Translations under genes and position numbers: made by a program
In this document: positions 2,987-13,740 of the stretch, piece by piece
How the letters are laid out: every line of letters begins with the position of its first letter
How positions within the stretch are numbered: the stretch's first letter is position 1
Assembly: GCA_031276105.1 (NCBI GenBank)
Contig: JAISNS010000107.1
Coordinates: 1 to 14,144 of the forward strand
Origin: Dysgonamonadaceae bacterium
GTDB lineage: Bacteria > Bacteroidota > Bacteroidia > Bacteroidales > Azobacteroidaceae
Reading direction: 5' to 3'
Length of the DNA: 14,144 nt
The notes under the pieces: model-generated
The model's input: only the letters and a program-made list of their open reading frames with translations
Told to the model about the DNA's origin: nothing
Database searches by the model: none

Positions 2987-5854
2987 ATGAAACACTACAG
3001 CATCCTCTTTTTCTTCGGCCTGTTCCTGTCGCTCCCCCTTTCAAAGGCGGGCGATTTTATTTATTCTTTGGATTCGAAAGCGGCCGGCGAGTGGAAAGTA
3101 TATCCCGTAAAAACTGCGGGAAGCAATACCGCTGCCCTGTCGGCGGTGGATTATAATTCTTCCGAATGGATTCCGGCAACCGTTCCCGGAACCTTTTTTG
3201 TCGATTACGTCAATGCCGGTTTGGAAGCCGACCCCAATTACGGCGATAATATCTATCGGGTGGACGAATCGAAATACAACCAACCGTTTTGGTACCGGAC
3301 GGTATTTGACGTTCCGCAACATTTTACCCGCGAGAAAATTTGGTTAAATCTGGAAGGAACCAATAAAAAGGCAACCGTTTATTTGAACGGACAGACCTTG
3401 GGCGTTATCAAAGGACACGTTCAACGAGCCAAATACGACGTCAGCGAAATCGTTTCCAAAACGCAGAAAAACGTTCTTCTGGTGCGGATTGATATTCCCA
3501 AACAACGCAACCGGCGGGAACAGGAGGGTTGGGATAATTTTACCAATTATGCCATGCCAACCTATATGGCAAGCGCAAGCTGGGACTGGATGCCTTATGT
3601 GCCGGGATTGAACTGCGGAATTACAAATAATGTTTATCTCTCCAATTCGGGAAGCGTTACCCTGGAAGACCCGTGGATACGAACGGAATTGCCCGACAAA
3701 AATCAAGCTTTCCTGAGTTTTCAAACGCAACTGAATAATACGTCCGCTCAATCTGTTGACGGGAAACTGGAAGGAACTATTCTACCCGGAAATATCCGGT
3801 TTTCAAAAGATATTACGATTCCCGCAAACAGCGCTCAAACCGTTCGATTGACTAAGGATGAATTCGCTCAACTAACGGTTGATAATCCCAAACTCTGGTG
3901 GCCCAACGGCTACGGCAACCCGGATTTGTATCTCTGTCAGGTAGAATTTAGCATGAACGGAACCGTTTCGGATGAACGGGAAATCACTTTCGGAATAAAA
4001 AAATATGAATACAAAACGGAAAATACCGCGTTGACTTTTTATATCAACGGCGAAAAAATATTGCTGAAAGGCGGGAATTGGGGAATGTCGGAATATTTGC
4101 TCCGTTGCCGTGACGATGAATACGAAACAAAAATCAAACTTCATGCCGATATGAATTACAACACCATCCGTTGCTGGACGGGTTGCGTAACGGATGAAGA
4201 GTTTTATCAATACTGCGACCGCTACGGCATCTTGGTTTGGGACGATTTTTGGCTGGCCAATGCTTTCATCGGCGGCGTGGACGATGAAACCGAATTTTGC
4301 TCCAATGCCGTTGATAAAGTGAAACGGCTGCGAAATCATCCTTGCATCGCCTTGTGGTGCGGAGCCAATGAAAGCGTTCCTCCCGGAAATCTGGACGACA
4401 ACCTGAAAGCTATTATTGCCGAATATGACGGAAACGACCGGCGCTATCAGCCCAATTCCCGGCAGGGCGGCGGACTGACCGGCAGCGGTTTTTGGAATAA
4501 TTTCCCCGCACGGGATTACCTGGGCGACGGAATTCCAAGCTGGGGCGGCGACTTCGGCGACTGGAACAAAAAACGGGGCATGAGAACCGAACTGGGAATG
4601 GCCGCTTTCACTACCTTTGAAAGTTTGAGGGAATTTATACCCGAATCTCACTGGTGGTCTTCGGATTGGTCGAAAAATGAAATGTGGAATAACCATTTTT
4701 TCGGCGAATCGGCAAGCGCTGCCAATCCCGAATCCTATTTCAATACCGTTAAAAAAAATTACGGCGCATCAAGCGGTATCGAAGAATTTTGTGAGAAATC
4801 GCAATACCTCAACCTGGAAATCATGAAAGCCATTTATGAAGGCTGGAACGAATATCTGTGGAACGACGCTACCGGAATTTTGATTTGGATGAGTCAATCG
4901 GCTTATCCTTCGTTCGTTTGGCAAACCTACGATTATTATTACGATGCTACCGGCGCTTACTGGGGCGCAAAAAAAGGCTGCGAACCGCTGCATATCCAAT
5001 GGAACTGCGTGAATAATTCCGTGAAAATCATTAATACCACTTTACAGGATTACGCCGGCTTGCAGGCACAAGCGACGGTTTATAATTCGGATGGCAGTAT
5101 TTACGAACCTTTGTCCATGCAAAAAACGGTCGGTGTGTTATCGAAAGAAGCCAAAGAATGTTTTATCCTCTCTTCGTCCGGCGACAACAGCGCCTTGTCC
5201 GATTTTAATTTCATTCGTTTGGAACTGAGAGATCAGCAGAATAATCTCCTGTCCGACAATTTTTACTGGCGGAATATGAAAAATCAGGATGATTATACGG
5301 CGCTGAACCATTTACCGAAAGCCGACCTTTCGACAAACCATTCGGAAAGAAGGGAAGACGGTCAATGTATAATTGATTATCAAGTGACGAATAATTCGGC
5401 CTCAGTCGCTTTCGGTATCCGTTTACGAGTGGTTAACGAACAGACCGGCGAACGGATATTGCCGGTTTTTATGAAAGAAAACTATTTTACATTGATGCCG
5501 GGCGAAACAAAAACCATGCAAATCCAATTCGCCGAATCGCTGATTGGCGATGCTCATGCCGCCGTTTTAACCAAACAGTACGGTTGGAAAGAATCTGCTA
5601 CGGCCATAAACAATCGAGCAACCGGTGAAGAAATGTTTCCGTTAACAATCTATCCGAATCCGCTTTCCGGCCATCTGTATCTGAAAGTTGAAAAAAAATT
5701 GGAGCAAATAAAAATCAGAGACATTAGCGGAACAATCGTTTATTCCGGCCCGATGGAAACAGCTATCAACGTTTCCTGCCTGCCCCAAGGCTTCTACTTA
5801 CTGCAGGGCATTTCCGGAAGAAATGTATATGCAGCCAAATTTATCAAGGAATAA
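2987..5854 (+). CDS. Glycoside hydrolase family 2, exo-beta-D-glucosaminidase-like, T9SS-exported
   Basis: The protein has 955 residues with a signal peptide of about 1-21 (ends SKA). Residues 60-220 form a GH2 sugar-binding jelly roll (WYRTVFDVP, WLNLEGTNKKATVYLNG), followed by an Ig-like domain to about 340 and a TIM barrel of about 340-660. The predicted acid/base is E462 in WCGANES and the predicted nucleophile is E535 in RTELG. Their 73-residue spacing is close to that of exo-beta-D-glucosaminidase CsxA (E469/E541, from memory). Residues 670-870 resemble the C-terminal Ig-like domains of that subfamily (FIRLELRDQQNNLLSDNFYW). Residues 884-955 are a T9SS type A tail with the typical YPNPLSG start. 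The enzyme is therefore predicted to act outside the cell or on its surface, removing terminal glucosamine or a related residue from chitosan-type or glycoprotein glycans. Beta-mannosidase or mannosylglycoprotein endo-mannosidase activity is an alternative. No sugar transporter genes adjoin it. Confidence 0.88.
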   Translation: MKHYSILFFFGLFLSLPLSKAGDFIYSLDSKAAGEWKVYPVKTAGSNTAALSAVDYNSSEWIPATVPGTFFVDYVNAGLEADPNYGDNIYRVDESKYNQPFWYRTVFDVPQHFTREKIWLNLEGTNKKATVYLNGQTLGVIKGHVQRAKYDVSEIVSKTQKNVLLVRIDIPKQRNRREQEGWDNFTNYAMPTYMASASWDWMPYVPGLNCGITNNVYLSNSGSVTLEDPWIRTELPDKNQAFLSFQTQLNNTSAQSVDGKLEGTILPGNIRFSKDITIPANSAQTVRLTKDEFAQLTVDNPKLWWPNGYGNPDLYLCQVEFSMNGTVSDEREITFGIKKYEYKTENTALTFYINGEKILLKGGNWGMSEYLLRCRDDEYETKIKLHADMNYNTIRCWTGCVTDEEFYQYCDRYGILVWDDFWLANAFIGGVDDETEFCSNAVDKVKRLRNHPCIALWCGANESVPPGNLDDNLKAIIAEYDGNDRRYQPNSRQGGGLTGSGFWNNFPARDYLGDGIPSWGGDFGDWNKKRGMRTELGMAAFTTFESLREFIPESHWWSSDWSKNEMWNNHFFGESASAANPESYFNTVKKNYGASSGIEEFCEKSQYLNLEIMKAIYEGWNEYLWNDATGILIWMSQSAYPSFVWQTYDYYYDATGAYWGAKKGCEPLHIQWNCVNNSVKIINTTLQDYAGLQAQATVYNSDGSIYEPLSMQKTVGVLSKEAKECFILSSSGDNSALSDFNFIRLELRDQQNNLLSDNFYWRNMKNQDDYTALNHLPKADLSTNHSERREDGQCIIDYQVTNNSASVAFGIRLRVVNEQTGERILPVFMKENYFTLMPGETKTMQIQFAESLIGDAHAAVLTKQYGWKESATAINNRATGEEMFPLTIYPNPLSGHLYLKVEKKLEQIKIRDISGTIVYSGPMETAINVSCLPQGFYLLQGISGRNVYAAKFIKE

Positions 5855-5886
5855 AACAGTAGGGGAGGGTACCGTCAAAAAGTTAT

Positions 5887-5933
5887 GAGTTAAGAACTAA
5901 GAGTTAAGAGTGGCGCGAAGCGTCGCTTCTCAT
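5887..5933. repeat. Heptad-arm repeat, copy A (one-armed)
   Basis: Three 7-nt units, gagttaa, gaactaa and gagttaa (5887-5907), lead into gagtg and the core gcgcgaagcg (5913-5922). The core's gaagcg pairs with cgcttc just after it. The architecture matches the element at 8272-8377 (periodic arm then the same 10-nt core), but the second arm is absent or eroded. It lies 33 nt after the glycoside hydrolase stop codon, in a gene-free stretch. Confidence 0.6.
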
Positions 5934-5975
5934 CCCGCGTAAAGGATAATTTCGTAACTTGGAGTTGCTCTCCCC

Positions 5976-8266: not shown

Positions 8267-8974
8267 ATGAAGAGTAAACGAGTAAACAAGTTAACGAGTA
8301 AACGAGGGCGCGAAGCGACTCTGCTTTGCCGCGCTTTGCGAACTTGGTCACTCGTCACTTGTTACTTGTCACTCCTCATTGCTTGCATGGAGGATGCGAA
8401 AGTAACGCAGAGCATTGCATTTGGGGAGATTGCGCCGCAGCAATTAAGAGACGGTTTTCTGCCGTTGGAAGCTACCGCTTCGTCGGGCTTGCCGGTATTT
8501 TTTGTGAGTGGCGATACAAGCATTGCCGTCGTCGAAGGCGACGCCGTCAGGTTTTTGAAAGCCGGTGCGACAACGATTACCGCCTGTCAACCGGGGAATG
8601 AGCGATACTATGAAGCGCCTCAAGTGACGCGGCAATTGCTTATCCGTGACTGGAATCCCAACAAGAAAACGCAAACCGTCCAATTTGAACTGCCCAATGA
8701 ATGGCGTCTCAGCAAGGATGGTACGATAGTGAGTCTGAGCGCAACCGCCTCGTCCGGCTTGCCGGTCACTTACACCCTGTCCGCTACAAGCTATGGATTT
8801 CTGTCGGCCAATGGCCGTTATCTCTATCTGTATCATGCCGGCGAAGGCGGAGTGGCTGCCGAGGCATACAATGCTCACATATCCGTCACAGCCTCGCAGC
8901 CGGGAGATGAAGAATACAATCCGGCAGACAATGTAACGGAGGTAATTCATGTGATTGGCGACGTATTTCATTAA
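8267..8974 (+). CDS. Lipoprotein with two Ig-like repeats; signal peptide encoded by a repeat
   Basis: The protein has 235 residues, with lipobox LIAC at 37-40 and C40 as the predicted lipidated cysteine. The mature part has two related units of about 90 residues, each with an ATASSGLPV motif and a later TA(C/S)QPG(N/D) motif ending in a Y-x-(P/A)-A segment, like bacterial Ig-like modules. The residues before C40 come from an intergenic-type repeat: the basic stretch (MKSKRVNKLTSKRGRE) from its left arm and the hydrophobic core (WSLVTCYLSLLIA) mainly from its right arm. A TTG at codon 24 is an alternative start that would give a more compact leader. It starts 4 nt after the receptor stop, which suggests a surface or periplasmic partner of that receptor. 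The function is unknown. Confidence 0.78.
   Translation: MKSKRVNKLTSKRGREATLLCRALRTWSLVTCYLSLLIACMEDAKVTQSIAFGEIAPQQLRDGFLPLEATASSGLPVFFVSGDTSIAVVEGDAVRFLKAGATTITACQPGNERYYEAPQVTRQLLIRDWNPNKKTQTVQFELPNEWRLSKDGTIVSLSATASSGLPVTYTLSATSYGFLSANGRYLYLYHAGEGGVAAEAYNAHISVTASQPGDEEYNPADNVTEVIHVIGDVFH
8272..8377. repeat. Heptad-arm repeat, copy B, inside the lipoprotein leader
   Basis: The left arm holds 8-nt units gagtaaac, gagtaaac, aagttaac and gagtaaac (8272-8303), then gagg and the core gcgcgaagcg (8308-8317). After a short loop the right core cgcgctttgcg (8330-8340) is followed by 7-nt GTCACTT-type units (8347-8373). The arms are imperfectly complementary. The right arm matches 13274-13300 at 26 of 27 positions and 11125-11151 at 25 of 27. 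Confidence 0.75.
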
Positions 8975-8989
8975 AAGCAATAAAAGGCA

Positions 8990-9460
8990 ATGCGATTTTA
9001 TACGGCAATAGTATTAACGGTGATGGTATTGAATATCAGTAAATACAATCTTCCTTATATAGAATATAATTTATTCAAAGAGTATATTGCCGGAAACCTG
9101 TGTGTCAAAAGAAGCAGCGCGAACAATACCTGTCAGGGCAAATGTTTCCTCGAAAAACAAATCAACCACGTAAACGAAACGGATCACCCTTCGGGGAATA
9201 CCTCCGAAAAGATACAAATCAATGAAAAGGGCGCGGACGACTATATTACGAAGGAAATCCTTCAGTTAACGCCCGTTTCGTTGACTGAAACAACATTCTC
9301 CCCCTTCCGGGAAATTCGTATGGTCGATATTTTTATAGACATTCCTCTTCCTCCCCCAAAGCCTGACATGGAAGACCGTACAGTATGCGGATCGCATACT
9401 GTACAGTCTATTGATCGCATACTGTACAGTCTATCGATCGCATACTGTACAGTCTGTTGA
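8990..9460 (+). CDS. Small one-pass membrane protein with C-x9-C-x3-C motif
   Basis: The protein has 156 residues. Residues 4-17 (YTAIVLTVMVLNIS) form one hydrophobic segment, a membrane anchor or uncleaved signal. After LPYIEYNLFKEYIAGNLC comes a cysteine motif with C38, C48 and C52 (NLCVKR ... CQGKCFLEKQ). I recall short unnamed Bacteroidota proteins with a similar NLC ... C-x-GKC-x-L-x-KQ signature near metal-handling genes, but cannot verify that here. Thiol-based metal binding or transfer at the periplasmic face is inferred. Residues from about 130 to the end are encoded by a 23-bp tandem array and the stop codon lies in it, so the tail is probably not ancestral. The gene starts 15 nt after the lipoprotein stop. 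Confidence 0.72.
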   Translation: MRFYTAIVLTVMVLNISKYNLPYIEYNLFKEYIAGNLCVKRSSANNTCQGKCFLEKQINHVNETDHPSGNTSEKIQINEKGADDYITKEILQLTPVSLTETTFSPFREIRMVDIFIDIPLPPPKPDMEDRTVCGSHTVQSIDRILYSLSIAYCTVC

Positions 9461-9491
9461 TCGCATACAGTACAGTATGTGATTTGCATAC
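9378..9491. repeat. 23-bp palindromic tandem array E
   Basis: Three full 23-bp units begin at 9390, 9413 and 9436 and differ only at the last few bases. A diverged fourth begins at 9459, and a partial gatttgcatac follows to 9491. Each of the first three units contains gcat then the 10-bp palindrome actgtacagt. The left edge forms a perfect 12-bp hairpin (9378-9389 with 9393-9404, loop gat). Units abut with no spacers, so this is not a CRISPR array. The array overlaps the 3' end of the cysteine-motif gene and lies 47 nt before the next ATG. Confidence 0.9.
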
Positions 9492-9494
9492 TAC

Positions 9495-9521
9495 TTTATT
9501 CAATTTATTCAATTTATTTAA
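9495..9521 (+). repeat. Three 9-bp AT-rich tandem units before the start codon
   Basis: The units tttattcaa, tttattcaa and tttatttaa lie head to tail, ending 16 nt before the ATG at 9538. The stretch from 9492 to 9537 is strongly A/T-rich with no Shine-Dalgarno, as is usual for translation start regions in this phylum. Copy-number slippage would change the leader length. Confidence 0.65.
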
Positions 9522-9537
9522 TCAATTTAAAAATCAA

Positions 9538-10614
9538 ATGAAACGCATATATAACATCCTATTATTTGCGCTGTTTTTCAGCGCCATCCACGCACAGTCT
9601 CCGGTAGAGGGATTGGCGGAAGCCGCCGTAACCGGATTGACGGCGAACGATCATTATACATTCCATATCTATTCTGCCGACGGCAAACTGAACCGCGGCT
9701 ATTCCGAACTGTTCATCGCCTTGAAGGATGAGCAGGGCGAGTTTGTCGATGACTTCACCGTTTCCAATTTCCATCCGCTGATGGATATGGGCGAACACAA
9801 ACATTCGACGCCGGTGGGCGCAGTAGAAAAAGTAGCCGGTAAACCGCTTTACAAAACGTGGTTTGCTTTCCTGATGTACTCCGGTCAAATGGGCGGTACA
9901 TGGGCATTGGATTTCGAGTACACTATCGGAGAAACGACAGGGAAAATCGAAGGCGCAGTTCCGCAAGTAGAAGACTATCCTGCCGGACAAAAGTGGATAC
10001 AGGCCTTCAACAGTAACTATTACGCTTCGATTGCCCATCCGCGCTCGTATGCCGAAGGCCTCCAAACCCTGCAAGCCTACATCAACGAACGAGTTACATC
10101 GACCGACCCGTATCCAATCGTGGACGGCGGATACAAGATCGTAGTAACGCCTCAGCAGGAGACAACCGTTTTGCCCGCCGCTACACTCGTTTGGAACGAC
10201 GAAAAAGACGTTTACGAAGGAACGGTCAATTTCACTTCCGAAGGATTGTGGACGCTCTATCTCAAAGTGCTGGACGCCGGCAACGATGCGCTTGTGGCAG
10301 GCGCCGACGGTGTGGAAAGCGCTCTATCGTGGAAAATCAATGTCAGCAAAGGCGGAACCGGCCTCCAATCAATCGCCGGCCACTCGCCGGTGAAGGTTTA
10401 TCCAACGATCTCGAACGGAGTCTTCACGGTCGAAACCGCAACCAATGCTGACATCGACGTTTTCAATCTCCATGGACAACGCCTGCAACGCCATGTCGCA
10501 TCCGCCGGTACGCCGCTCCCCATCGACCTGTCGAACTATGGCAAAGGCCGGTACCTGATAAGCGTCAAAACCGGTTCGGGCGAAGTCGTGAACCGAAAAG
10601 TGATCGTGAAATGA
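9538..10614 (+). CDS. T9SS-exported H/M-rich YtkA-like protein
   Basis: The protein has 358 residues. The start at 9538 is chosen because it opens into a signal peptide (MKRIYNILLFALFFSAIHAQ); an in-frame ATG at 9457 lies inside the repeat array. Two related beta-sandwich-like units follow. The first (about 40-130) carries the motif HPLMDMGEHKHS (H79, M82, M84, H87, H89) with M113 and M118 later, a pattern like the metal-ligand loop of YtkA/FixH-type domains. The second (about 190-270) has WNDEKDVYEGTVNF and GLWTLYLKVLD, closely matching the next gene product. Residues 281-358 are a T9SS type A tail (VKVYPTISNGVF ... VIVK). Surface binding of copper or a similar soft metal is inferred. The stop overlaps the next start (ATGA), implying translational coupling. 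Confidence 0.85.
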   Translation: MKRIYNILLFALFFSAIHAQSPVEGLAEAAVTGLTANDHYTFHIYSADGKLNRGYSELFIALKDEQGEFVDDFTVSNFHPLMDMGEHKHSTPVGAVEKVAGKPLYKTWFAFLMYSGQMGGTWALDFEYTIGETTGKIEGAVPQVEDYPAGQKWIQAFNSNYYASIAHPRSYAEGLQTLQAYINERVTSTDPYPIVDGGYKIVVTPQQETTVLPAATLVWNDEKDVYEGTVNFTSEGLWTLYLKVLDAGNDALVAGADGVESALSWKINVSKGGTGLQSIAGHSPVKVYPTISNGVFTVETATNADIDVFNLHGQRLQRHVASAGTPLPIDLSNYGKGRYLISVKTGSGEVVNRKVIVK

Positions 10615-11090
10615 AAGCTGTATTATTATACACTTTAATAAGCCTTTCCGTCTTCATAGTCTCTTGCGAAAGAGACTATGAGCCGGAAAGGCTCGTTAAT
10701 GACGAAGGAACCGGCACGGGCAATACAACCTGGATAAAATCCTTTACGACAGGAAAAACAAGCTATTACCTCTTCTTCACCTCGCCCCGCCTGGAAGAAG
10801 GAATCAATACCCTGCGGGCGGTTCTTTATTTGGAAAACATGAAGCCGGTTGCCGGTTATACAATAGCCATCGACCCGCGTATGCCCGATATGGAAAACCA
10901 TTCGTCGCCCAACAACCAACCGCTGGAATGGAACGCCGAAAAGCGTATCTACGAAGGAACGCTCAACCTGACCATGACCGGCTGGTGGCGACTAAACCTC
11001 CAAGTATATGACGATAAGGGCAACCTTACCGGCGGCAACGCCGTTGAAGGACAAGGGTCGAGTTCGCTTTATTGGGACATAGAAATTTAA
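10611..11090 (+). CDS. YtkA-like lipoprotein with MPDMENH motif
   Basis: The protein has 159 residues. The signal peptide ends in FIVSC, with C19 as the predicted lipidated cysteine, and an acidic CERDYE start that could favour surface display. The single beta-rich domain contains IDPRMPDMENHSSP (M91, M94, H97), which resembles the metal-binding loop of YtkA-like proteins, followed by LEWNAEKRIYEGTLNL and GWWRLNLQVYDDKGN. The latter segments align with residues 218-246 of the preceding T9SS protein, so the two arose from a common domain. It overlaps that gene by 4 nt. A metal relay next to the downstream receptor is inferred. Confidence 0.82.
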   Translation: MKAVLLYTLISLSVFIVSCERDYEPERLVNDEGTGTGNTTWIKSFTTGKTSYYLFFTSPRLEEGINTLRAVLYLENMKPVAGYTIAIDPRMPDMENHSSPNNQPLEWNAEKRIYEGTLNLTMTGWWRLNLQVYDDKGNLTGGNAVEGQGSSSLYWDIEI

Positions 11091-11093
11091 TCC

Positions 11094-11100
11094 GGAGGGA
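11094..11100 (+). promoter_or_regulatory. Shine-Dalgarno-like site before the OprC-like receptor
   Basis: ggaggga lies 6 nt before the ATG at 11107. It is unusually strong for this phylum, where most starts in the window, including the other cluster genes, lack one. It supports 11107 (or the adjacent ATG at 11110) as the start. Confidence 0.6.
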
Positions 11101-11106
11101 GCAGAT

Positions 11107-13209
11107 ATGATGAAATTCAGATATGTCACTCGTCATTCGTTACTTGTCACTGCTATAAGCTGTTTCGTCGTCACGGCGGCCTTTTCCCAAAGCAACGACT
11201 CCATTGCAACCCCCATCGAAATAGAAGAAATCGTTATCACCGTAAAAACAGGATTCAACCCCAACCGGCAGGTAAAATCTTCCGCTTCGCTCGACGAATA
11301 CCTCCAACAGTCCGAGAAAGTACAATTGGTGAAGCGCGGCAGCTACGCCTGGGAACCCGCCATCAACAGCATGACCACCGAACGTATCTCCGTTACCATC
11401 GACGGAATGAAAATCTTTTGCGCCTGCACCGACCGCATGGATCCCATTACGTCGTATGTCGAAACCTCCAACCTCAGCAAAGTAAACGTCGGCAGCGGCT
11501 TTGGCGACAATCCGCAGGCAACCAACAGCATCGGCGGAAGCATGAACCTCCTGCTCAACAAAGCCGGATTCGGCGACAACGAATGGGAATTGCGAGCCAA
11601 CACCGGCTACGAAACAAACGGCAATACGCAGGCTTACAGCGCCGACGGCTCTTTCTCCGGCCAATGGTTCTATGCTAATGCCGGCTTTTCGCATCGCCGC
11701 AGCGGCAACTACCAGGCGGGCGGCGGCGAAGAAGTGCGTTACTCGCAATACGCCAAAAACAACGCCTTCACCAACTTCGGCTTCCTGCCCCGCCGGGGAC
11801 ACACGATCGAAGGAACCGTTATTTACGACCTCGCCCGCGATGTCGGCTACCCGGCGCTTCTGATGGATGTTGCCACCGCAGAAGGCTTCATCACATCCCT
11901 CAGTTACCGGCGCGAGTCATTCTCCCCGATTTTTAATAAGTGGGAAACCAAAGCCTATTACAACCGCATCCGGCACATCATGGACGACACCCGGCGCGAA
12001 GAAGTCATCAACGGCGCTCAGATGCACATGGACATGCCCGGTACGAGCATCACCGGCGGTATCTATTCCACGCTGACCGGCAGTCGCGGACGGCACAACT
12101 TCACCGCCAACTTCGACGCCTACCACAACCGCTCCGCTGCCGAAATGACGATGTATCCGCTCGACCCCGCCCATCCGCCGATGTTTATGCTCACCTGGGG
12201 CGATGTGCGGACGTTCAACAGCGGGCTTGCCCTCTCGAACGAAACAAGCATCGACCGGCACAACACCGTCCGTATTTCGGCAAAAGCCTCCCTGCAACGG
12301 AGCGGTATGCACGATAAAGCCGGATTCAAGATGCTGCAAACCTATTATCCCGGCCTCAACCCGTATGCCGGCCGCTTTTTGTGGAAGCAGCCCAATACGG
12401 TTTTGTGGGATTTGTCGGGACGCTACTTTGCCGTCGACCGCTTTTTGTGGAATGTATCGGGAAAATACCTTTACAAAAAAGAATCGTGGGAACTCTCCGG
12501 CGGAGGCGGCTACGGCTCCCGTGCGCCTTCTGTTTCGGAAGCTTACGGCTACTTCCTTTACAACACCTTCGACGGCTACGATTACTTGGGCAACCCCGGC
12601 TTAACGAACGAAGAATCGCTGGAAGGCAACGCCTCTCTTACTTGGCGCAACCATTCGCTGCATGTGAAGCTGGACGGCTCGCTGTTTTATTTCACCGCTT
12701 ACATCATCGGCAAACCCGACGACCGCTTGCATCACATGACCGCCGGCGCCACCGGCGTTAAAGTGTATCAAAACCTGCCGCACGCCACGATCTTCAACAC
12801 GAGTTTGACCCTGAAATACCGTTTCCTGCAATACTTTCAGTGGCGCAACCGTCTTTCGTATGCGATTGGTCGCGACGACAAAAACGCGCCCCTGCCGCTT
12901 ATATCGCCTTTCGGTGGAGAAACAGCCCTCCACTTCAGCGCTTACCATTTCACGGCGGAAACAAGTCTTCACGGCGCAACTCCGCAAACGGACTTCAGCC
13001 CCGAATACGGCGAAGACCGTACACCCGGATATGTGATTGCCAACCTCAGCGCAGGCTACGAATGGCGGGTAAAAGACGTAATCCTGCACTTGAAAAGCGG
13101 CATAGAAAACCTGTTTGATAAGAACTATTCGACCGCTTCCGACTGGAATAATATTCCCCGAAAGGGACGAAACGTCTTTGTGAGTTTAGGAATGGAGATT
13201 TTTAAGTGA
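11107..13209 (+). CDS. TonB-dependent copper receptor, OprC/NosA-like
   Basis: The protein has 700 residues. The signal peptide (about 1-28) ends VVTAAFSQ, and part of it is encoded by a heptad repeat. A TonB-box-like segment EIEEIVITVKTG (38-49) leads into the plug (about 55-152): VQLVKRGSYAWEPAIN, TERISVTIDGMKIFCACTDRM, then VNVGSGFGDNPQATNSIGGSM. C107 and M111 form a CxxxM motif, with C105 nearby. In the barrel, RHIMDDTRREEV is followed by MHMDM (M306, H307, M308, M310). From memory, OprC of Pseudomonas binds copper through a CxxxM plug motif and a barrel-loop HxM motif, so the ligand set here is similar though not identical. The barrel ends with VFVSLGMEIFK. Copper uptake across the outer membrane with TonB energy is the best prediction. 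The stop codon lies in the left arm of a large palindrome. Confidence 0.88.
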   Translation: MMKFRYVTRHSLLVTAISCFVVTAAFSQSNDSIATPIEIEEIVITVKTGFNPNRQVKSSASLDEYLQQSEKVQLVKRGSYAWEPAINSMTTERISVTIDGMKIFCACTDRMDPITSYVETSNLSKVNVGSGFGDNPQATNSIGGSMNLLLNKAGFGDNEWELRANTGYETNGNTQAYSADGSFSGQWFYANAGFSHRRSGNYQAGGGEEVRYSQYAKNNAFTNFGFLPRRGHTIEGTVIYDLARDVGYPALLMDVATAEGFITSLSYRRESFSPIFNKWETKAYYNRIRHIMDDTRREEVINGAQMHMDMPGTSITGGIYSTLTGSRGRHNFTANFDAYHNRSAAEMTMYPLDPAHPPMFMLTWGDVRTFNSGLALSNETSIDRHNTVRISAKASLQRSGMHDKAGFKMLQTYYPGLNPYAGRFLWKQPNTVLWDLSGRYFAVDRFLWNVSGKYLYKKESWELSGGGGYGSRAPSVSEAYGYFLYNTFDGYDYLGNPGLTNEESLEGNASLTWRNHSLHVKLDGSLFYFTAYIIGKPDDRLHHMTAGATGVKVYQNLPHATIFNTSLTLKYRFLQYFQWRNRLSYAIGRDDKNAPLPLISPFGGETALHFSAYHFTAETSLHGATPQTDFSPEYGEDRTPGYVIANLSAGYEWRVKDVILHLKSGIENLFDKNYSTASDWNNIPRKGRNVFVSLGMEIFK
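11125..11151. repeat. Heptad-arm repeat, half copy C inside a signal peptide
   Basis: 27 nt of GTCACTY-type units match 8347-8373 at 25 of 27 positions. They encode VTRHSLLVT, residues 7-15 of the OprC-like receptor, in a reading frame different from that used at 8347. No core or left arm is present, so this is either half an element or what remains of one. Confidence 0.7.
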
Positions 13210-13300
13210 CAAGTGACGAGTGACAAGTGACAAGAGCGCAAAGCGGCGTTTGTTTGGAGCGCTTTGCGCCCTTGTCACTCGTCACTTGTCACTTGTCACT
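13205..13300. repeat. Heptad-arm repeat, copy D: large imperfect palindrome
   Basis: The left arm 13205-13245 (agtgac units then agcgcaaagcg) pairs with 13260-13300 at 38 of 41 positions, around a 14-nt loop. The arms are built from 7-nt units AAGTGAC or GAGTGAC and the core GCGCAAAGCG. The TGA stop of the receptor gene (13207-13209) is the second to fourth base of the first agtgac unit. The element fills nearly the whole gap to the HMA gene. Transcribed, it would form a very stable hairpin without a T-run and could attenuate read-through or protect the upstream mRNA 3' end. Confidence 0.88.
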
Positions 13301-13320
13301 CCAAATAAAAATAATGAAAG

Positions 13321-13667: not shown

Positions 13668-13740
13668 ATAAAGCGACTTTATACGTACTTATAAAGCGAC
13701 TTTATAGGTACGTATAAAGCGGCTTTATAGGTACGTATAA
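13668..13740. repeat. 23-bp palindromic tandem array F between convergent genes
   Basis: Three 23-bp units start at 13668, 13691 and 13714, and a fourth begins (ataa) at 13737. Each unit is ataaagcgactttat, or the same with one base changed, plus an 8-nt linker (acgtactt or aggtacgt). The 15-mer is itself an imperfect palindrome. Units abut. The array fills the gap between the stop codons of the HMA gene and the convergent stress-protein gene, where it could act as a two-way terminator or mRNA end structure. Its sequence is unrelated to array E but the period is the same. Confidence 0.9.

Follow-up and report, generated by a model that had tools for sequence, protein, structure and literature searches.

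Rickettsia palindromic elements (RPE) are palindromic repeats that are kept in frame in protein-coding genes, where they lie inside the mature proteins, and ESPR (Pfam PF13018) is an N-terminal extension, placed before the signal peptide of autotransporters, that many large exported proteins share. For enterobacteria, excerpts of Delihas (2007; PMC2759123) describe the small mobile repeat units RU-1, RU-2 and RU-3, which are found fused to open reading frames (ORFs); RU-1 lengthens a C-terminus, and one repeat-derived signal peptide is reported. Excerpts of MacGregor (2015; PMC4679880) describe TAACTGA heptamer repeats from Beggiatoaceae, cyanobacteria and some Bacteroidetes, which give stops in all frames one way and the open cycle LSVISYQ the other way, and which lie at the ends and beginnings of ORFs, with 13 sets overlapping stop codons. 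Here we analyze a stretch of 14,144 nucleotides (the window; contig C50) from a Dysgonamonadaceae bacterium (G000, a metagenome-assembled genome of 2.58 Mb in 370 contigs, 86% complete), which carries a dispersed palindromic repeat with arms of tandem degenerate heptads (GTYACTY) or octads (GTYNACTY) and a GCGCRAAGCG core. The reading that we favor, and regard as fairly probable, is that these repeats persist at gene edges, that cleaved signal peptides serve as a safe harbor for them, and that selection keeps the frame and not the peptide.

Unlike RPE, the copies within G000 genes occur only in leaders and at 3′ ends. A search with 18 repeat-coded leaders gave no Pfam match at E 1, ESPR included, and unlike ESPR the leader cassette of a sister genome described below is repeat-built and has a variable interior. 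With the TAACTGA repeats the present heptads have in common, as far as the excerpts go, the tandem 7-nt unit, stops in all frames one way with an open reading the other way, and the placement at ORF edges; the units themselves differ, being GTYACTY and GTYNACTY in place of TAACTGA. The excerpted parts of PMC4679880 place direct TAACTGA arrays mostly between genes before starts, and contain no description of signal-peptide coding, of an octad arm or of a leader cassette. The RU elements, as excerpted (PMC2759123), are without heptad or octad arms and supply one signal peptide, compared with eleven genes in G000 and 47 fused cassettes in the sister genome G015. The stop/open logic of heptamers with their ORF-end bias (PMC4679880) and one repeat-derived signal peptide (PMC2759123) are already published, at least in these excerpts, while the scale, the two-armed reading with one basic and one hydrophobic arm, and the start-anchored cassette appear to be new. 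A search of the open-licence PMC literature found nothing on heptad-coded signal peptides.

Results

G000 contains 82 occurrences of the exact 20-mer GTYACTYGTYACTYGTYACT and none of its control, the same pattern read backwards (as in all our pattern counts); a looser heptad form with two mismatches gives 141 against 8. The heptad arrays are therefore not due to chance. The octad pattern RAGTNNACRAGTNNACRAGT gives 123 against 0. Read outward, heptad arms are free of stops in every frame, as are octads with the exception of GTTAACTC; read inward, pure arms reach a stop within three units (21–24 nt), again in every frame. A preliminary description of the window had stated that pure GTCACTT yields HLSLVTC in all three frames and that its reverse carries TGA in all three, and translation bears this out. 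It had also called the repeat a ready-made leader, which is true of GTCACTT and GTTACTT units but not of GTCACTC units (VTRHSSL), which are not hydrophobic: the Kyte-Doolittle means are +1.37 for HLSLVTC, –0.29 for VTRHSSL and +0.91 for VYSFTRLL. The leaders, moreover, usually take hydrophobic residues from the flank too. Octad arms matter equally. The best 11-residue stretches of ten G000 leaders score 1.95–2.88, mostly with the help of non-repeat residues, and those of four homologue leaders 1.91–2.89. The repeat makes a tolerable rather than an ideal leader.

The placement of the repeat was tabulated in stretches taken around pattern matches and covering approximately one tenth of G000 (all 82 exact heptad places, 100 of the 141 loose ones and 100 of the 123 octad ones), with genes called by our own codon-score caller and an array defined as at least three units. 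The tabulation comprises at least 83 arrays: 47 are intergenic, 19 lie at gene 3′ ends, 17 near starts and none mid-gene. All 19 at 3′ ends are AGTGAC-oriented, and in 18 the stop overlaps the array. Those near starts comprise 12 that are GTCACT-oriented, two of which (L206 and L213) have doubtful leaders and are set aside from the leader list, and five octad left arms. Fifteen of 17 genes with a 3′-end overlap take their stop from the array, six at once (directly after K, E or Q), four after an SD- tail and five after a VTSD- tail, so that all three frames are used for stops. Orientation was proposed beforehand to decide the role of the repeat, with a tabulation against gene edges as the check and a lack of bias as the contrary outcome; the bias is present, and in the examined tenth of the genome the rule holds, with the open orientation at leaders and the stop orientation at 3′ ends.

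Within the window, the arrays at 8347–8373, 11125–11151 and 13274–13300 were recovered as one family. Their identities, counted by eye, are 26/27 (first and third) and 25/27 (first and second), as had been stated, but 24/27 for the second and third. The leader segments SLVTCYLSL and VTRHSLLVT do come from different frames, and the receptor-like gene does end on AAG-TGA, with the TGA within the reverse array 13205–13231; these first observations of the repeats are confirmed. The label "receptor" is the preliminary description's own; no Pfam match at 0.01 backs it. The first array is one arm of a single two-armed palindrome (8272–8374) whose octad left arm shares its reading frame with the heptad right arm. 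The leader of the gene at 8267 is thus the whole palindrome, with a basic left arm, a hydrophobic right arm and the stop-making units replaced: specifically, the left arm runs GAGTAAAC, GAGTAAAC, AAGTTAAC, GAGTAAAC, and AAGTTAAC sits where GAGTAAAC would yield TAA. The region 8267–8380 folds at –49.5 kcal/mol (z –6.7). The intergenic element at 13204–13301 is likewise one palindrome, and an Rfam scan of the window and seven other loci gave no match, which sets aside a known RNA family.

Features of the window, G000 genes with repeat-coded leaders, and arrays within enzyme genes of other phyla
Feature	Position	Strand	Remarks
Degenerate relative	5881..5935	+	AGTTAAG heptads, then GGCGCGAAGCGTCGCTTC; downstream of gene 2987–5854; weak fold, z –2.0
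Lipoprotein-like gene, 235 aa	8267..8974	+	Element-coded leader MKSKRVNKLTSKRGREATLLCRALRTWSLVTCYLSLLIAC; lipobox LIAC right behind; no Pfam match
Left arm, octad array	8272..8306	+	GAGTAAAC units, read SKRVNKLTSKR (basic part)
Element core	8307..8346	+	GCGCGAAGCG ... CGCTTTGCG
Right arm, heptad array GTCACTY	8347..8373	+	Read SLVTCYLSL (hydrophobic part)
Receptor-like gene, 700 aa	11107..13209	+	Repeat-coded leader MMKFRYVTRHSLLVTAISCFVVTAAFS; no Pfam match; stop TGA inside next element
Single-arm heptad array	11125..11151	+	Read VTRHSLLVT in leader
Left arm of intergenic palindrome, AAGTGAC units	13204..13234	-	TGA 13207–13209 ends gene 11107–13209
Palindrome core	13235..13270	.	GCGCAAAGCG ... 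CGCTTTGCGC
Right arm, GTCACTY units	13271..13301	+	Ends 19 nt before next start codon (13321)
SusC-type plug	L208 122–3490		Pfam
A2M	L221 3–3443		Pfam; contig ends just upstream
SusD	L226 1022		Pfam
Lipoprotein-like, 170 aa	L226 2808		No Pfam match
GH30	L226 3374		Type IX secretion system (T9SS) tail
GH2	L229 343		T9SS tail
SusD	L321 1432–3102		Pfam
AhpC-TSA/thioredoxin-like	L333 2381		Native signal peptide behind array
TonB plug	L334, called from 2498		Pfam; leader ATG ~2645
Class-III aminotransferase	L122 3418–3444, L141 5987–6013, L186 2880–2906		Array; seemingly one site in three loci
Other array-bearing enzymes	L136 6885–6911, L171 2380–2406, L145 3838–3864		GMP synthase, PrmC and NAD(P)H-hydrate dehydratase

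Two tandem palindromic arrays with a 23-nt period also lie in the window, one at 9378–9492 (GATCGCATACTGTACAGTCTATT) upstream of the gene at 9538 and one of other sequence at 13668–13740 (ATAAAGCGACTTTATAGGTACGT) between convergent genes.

The G000 arrays merge into 61 elements, 26 two-armed and 35 single-armed, with the order AGTGAC..GTCACT in all 26; one of them folds strongly, and like repetitive extragenic palindromes (REP) they form a palindromic repeat in many copies. A possible, though not a likely, explanation for the placement at stop codons is that copies between genes act as RNA hairpins, REP-like or terminator-like, by which transcripts are protected or ended; the leaders would then be side effects. 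The fold of 13200–13305 (–70 kcal/mol, z –11.4) suits this, as does the fact that among the 51 gene stops neighboring an element 20 lie inside it and another 15 at a distance of 3–16 nt. However, elements are equally close to starts (of 39 neighboring starts 20 are at 3–28 nt, and in nine cases the element lies inside the gene), single-armed copies are common, and the sequence behind 13204–13301 is A-rich, without the T-run of an intrinsic terminator. The element is also absent from nine terminator candidates, where the loop limit of 8 could exclude its hairpin.

Eleven G000 genes have leader residues coded by the repeat, and ten of these, with a Pfam match or a lipobox, are of exported types as judged by hydropathy, lipobox and protein family. 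For comparison, an N-terminal stretch reaching a hydropathy of 2.0 is found in 48 of 121 other genes of the sampled stretches. In five leaders the whole palindrome is read, the left arm giving SKRVNKLTSK or SKRVNELTSK and the right arm, of heptads or octads, the hydrophobic stretch. Two leaders from two genomes (L229 343–450 and L233 6261–6340) include a second palindrome, ATTGCGGGTCAAGCCCGCAATGAC, whose in-frame reading is IAGQARND. A database search with the first 45 residues of one G000 leader found nothing at E 10, by a method that needs shared 5-mers and similar length. The contrary outcome for recruitment named beforehand was that distant homologues would have the same leader residues; the five inspected (of the receptor-like protein in G022, G020 and G035, of the lipoprotein-like protein in G022 and G019) carry unrelated ordinary leaders, e.g., MKKVNPIIFLLTVCLPVYAQ and MKKIKLFLFSAVIAISFAAGC. 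In G022 the lipoprotein homologue has a heptad-like GTTACTCGTAACCCGTAACTC upstream, outside the leader.

Whether the octad RAGTNNAC makes a stop depends on NN and on the phase: AA does so at one phase, TA or TG at another. Among eight leader left arms (five from G000 and three from G015), TA or TG is present in every one of the 11 units at the phase where AA would stop, and AA in the units at the other phase; the G000 octad pool, which includes two of the coding arms, has AA in 98 and TA or TG in 42 of 140 units. Short arms remain open in 0.16 to 0.32 of permutations each and, since the sample was selected for openness, carry little weight. The 13-unit arm of L233 4794, which follows AA-TG-AA throughout and remains open in ∼0.1% of permutations, offers stronger evidence that left arms may be translated.

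In G015, which belongs to the same genus, 8 of the 12 arrays of the first sampled stretches fall in leaders. The sequence ATGAAACAWTCATGTTTAACAAACAC, within three mismatches, has 43 copies there against 0 in the control, and none in G000 or G030. A wider pick over sampled loci gave cassettes with an ATG in G015 (56), G013 (8), G061 (3), G012 (1) and G017 (1). In G015 the cassette consists of MK[QH]SCLTNTQEHEN and octads. The typical product is MKQSCLTNTQEHENEYSFTRQLVNSLTHFR, with MK and an ordinary signal peptide behind it. These counts leave out L240 and L286, where the cassette ATG is replaced by ACG and ATA respectively (L286 is open for 699 codons), a degenerate second copy in L260, and L361, which a 3-nt deletion puts outside the ungapped profile and which is open for 720 codons. 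The same profile gave many low-scoring matches to the octad part and one better match in G020 (C105, 1–29, open for 515 codons). A database search with the first 48 residues of one G015 leader protein returned three proteins, all from Dysgonamonadaceae bacterium and probably the G015 or G013 records themselves; the method is the one used above, and absence elsewhere is not proved by it.

The frame of 47 of the 56 G015 copies leads into an ORF of 100 aa or more, or runs off the locus. The next ATG follows at exactly 90 nt in 25 copies (canonical); of the other 31, 22 are fused, against the one third expected under random frame. Twelve of these 31 have a later ATGAAA start, with eight fused, three out of frame and one interrupted by a stop, and 14 fused copies have none. 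Three of these 14 (L267, L275 and L283), and likewise L348 of G061, show ATAAAA or ACGAAA in place of the native ATGAAA, with the frame and the signal peptide intact, which we read as decay of the native start behind the cassette. Behind the 25 canonical cassettes 23 N-termini reach a hydropathy of ∼2.0; of the others one reaches 1.93 and one is a second cassette. The cassette itself starts with ATGAAA, as does the next start in 37 of 48 copies, and ATGAAA begins 13 of 28 cassette-free, N-terminally hydrophobic G015 genes. Miniature inverted-repeat transposable elements (MITEs) are marked by target-site duplications and by terminal inverted repeats that they share with a transposase element; here the ATGAAA at both ends may reflect a duplication or the usual start. 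Upstream of the cassettes TAnnTTTG, which we take to be a promoter motif, is found in 10 of 56 cases (shuffled mean 3.8, maximum 8), an association that is suggestive only.

A serious rival, although we hold it to be unlikely, is that the start-anchored element is a functional leader, i.e., an extended signal peptide or a 5′ mRNA regulator, translated or not, which co-ordinates the export or expression of outer-membrane proteins and has spread because it is useful. It would account for the 51 G015 copies that stand in the sense direction at a start or immediately ahead of one, with a fused ORF or a later ATGAAA (the other five are unclear), and for the same type of cassette in four other genomes. 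Pfam matches are clear for 12 of 15 scanned G015 leader proteins (SusD, SusE/F, TonB barrels, OEP, GH43, GH2, N-glycanase, trypsin-like), all of outer-membrane or secreted types, and weak for L233 4794, L238 and L239; the fused protein of L253 is an acyltransferase with a transmembrane-like N-terminus, which means that secretion does not extend to all fused proteins. Different genomes share similar first 14 codons but vary in the interior, and conserved nucleotides with a variable peptide would also suit a function at the RNA level. On the other hand, the interior differs in both sequence and length (in G061 it is a different palindrome), and there are copies that lack an ATG or whose frame is closed or shifted. 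Neither Pfam nor Rfam gives a match to the leaders, and the best NCBIfam match (E 0.048) is to an unrelated family, which sets aside a known leader family. Across a set of 50 G015 copies, minor bases have mean frequencies of 0.131, 0.083 and 0.135 at the first, second and third codon positions; without a third-position excess the peptide is not visibly conserved, and tolerance fits better than selection for the peptide.

Less probable still is that the starts are mis-chosen, the repeats lying in 5′ untranslated regions, open by chance, with the downstream native ATG as the real start. Outward GTYACTY arms cannot hold stops in any case, 24 canonical G015 copies retain a native N-terminus with its own ATG (one precedes a second cassette), the upstream ATG is probably spurious in L206, and L286 retains the native ATG but not that of the cassette. 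Against this stand the excess of fused copies among those with other spacing or no later ATGAAA, the four native starts decayed in frame, the avoidance of stops by octad left arms at the critical phase, and six G000 genes (the two window genes, the two SusD, the GH2 and the GH30) that have no later ATG before the mature part.

Octads are present in 11 of 38 genomes of the genus. All 11 arrays of the sampled G018 and G020 loci are intergenic; those of G030 are intergenic or at gene 3′ ends, with one overlapping a start. In the relatives G010, G023 and G036 the backward heptad control (TCAYTGY units) itself has 7, 6 and 1 matches, and these genomes may carry a different heptad of their own. The 27-mer GTCACTYGTCACTYGTCACTYGTCACT extends far beyond the genus, to at least 119 stretches in named genomes of many phyla. 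There, with genes called crudely by length only, 202 arrays give 204 placements: 99 are intergenic, AGTGAC arrays lie at 3′ ends in 37 cases, near starts in nine and mid-gene in three, and GTCACT arrays near starts in 28, mid-gene in 26 and at 3′ ends in two. Within conserved enzymes encoded by metagenome-assembled genomes of other phyla, in-frame GTCACTY arrays (SSLVTRHSSL and kin) resemble Rickettsia palindromic elements; the sources are named Nitrospirae (L122, L136 and L141) and Thermodesulfovibrionia (L145). A REP-associated tyrosine transposase (RAYT) is not favored as the mobilizer, because Y1_Tnp does not track octad abundance across the 38 genomes, which are incomplete: G000 has one, on a 3,070-base contig (C149) with no heptad array, octad-rich G018 and G016 have none, and octad-free G004 has 12.

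Discussion

The safe-harbor reading can be put as a sequence of steps. The element would arise by insertion, or by recombination-based copying between repeats, and would survive only in places that the code permits, namely intergenic regions, gene 3′ ends if it faces the stop way, and leaders if it faces the open way. A gene running into the element ends there cleanly and gains no more than a few residues, for example VTSDE or VTSDK. Between a start codon and the mature part the element would be tolerated, since a signal peptide asks for no more than basic residues, hydrophobic residues and a site of cleavage, after which it is removed. In the surviving leader copies the outward arm would be fairly hydrophobic, while an inward arm, if present, would be of the octad type with its stop-making units changed and read as the basic stretch. 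In G015 an ATG-anchored leader built partly of the same octads sits mostly right before the native ATGAAA start and in frame with it. In line with this reading, two of the non-fused G015 copies, which stand before genes of cytoplasmic type, are out of frame (L260, NAD kinase) or closed (L261, AAA ATPase 262 nt on). We infer from sequence the insertion origin, the initiation at the upstream ATG, the cleavage, and a selection that acts on the frame and on hydrophobicity, not on the peptide.

A more specific proposal, which we put forward tentatively, is that a mobile start-codon-anchored cassette copies itself into the ATGAAA starts of genes for exported proteins, supplying or prefixing signal peptides in frame. 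Dozens of unrelated outer-membrane and secreted proteins would then share a repeat-built leader, some of them with their own start codon lost.

Several observations weigh against the safe-harbor reading. The start anchoring of the G015 cassettes is not well explained by random insertion plus tolerance, which does not predict it. Nine of the 56 are not fused: four precede a later ATGAAA and five are without a convincing close start. Where the cassette ATG is lost (L240 and L286) the native start must serve. The bias toward exported proteins is weaker against a clean background, since the hydropathy reached behind 23 of the 25 canonical cassettes is also reached by 28 of 45 cassette-free G015 genes of the same loci. 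Only genes with an open frame could enter the leader counts, and the octad arms were picked likewise. The start codon of the gene at 8267 lies inside its hairpin, which should hinder initiation, and initiation could instead use an in-frame TTG that lies in its core (MRTWSLVTCYLSLLIAC). Four of nine G013 and G012 copies are closed frames of 32 codons that end before the native start. Finally, sense arrays lie mid-gene in other phyla, which limits the safe-harbor reading to this lineage.

Behind the closed frames (L342, L343 and L344 of G013, and L350 of G012; MKQSCLTNTQENENVWISIQTLNNQYFSVFSF and kin) come AGTTTTT-like repeats; L342, L343 and L350 then have a later ATGAAA with an open frame. It is possible that they are upstream ORFs with a role of their own.

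These results call for caution in annotating start codons and predicting signal peptides in repeat-rich Bacteroidales, and the reading gives a testable account of why short repeats coincide with stop codons and lie close to starts. Provided that the leaders are translated, signal peptides would be a low-cost place for repeat translation, because their sequence is loosely constrained and is cut off. Non-coding repeats could in this simple way turn coding, with the stages visible as the bare arm, the whole palindrome, the prefixed cassette, the cassette with the native start lost, and the closed reading frame.

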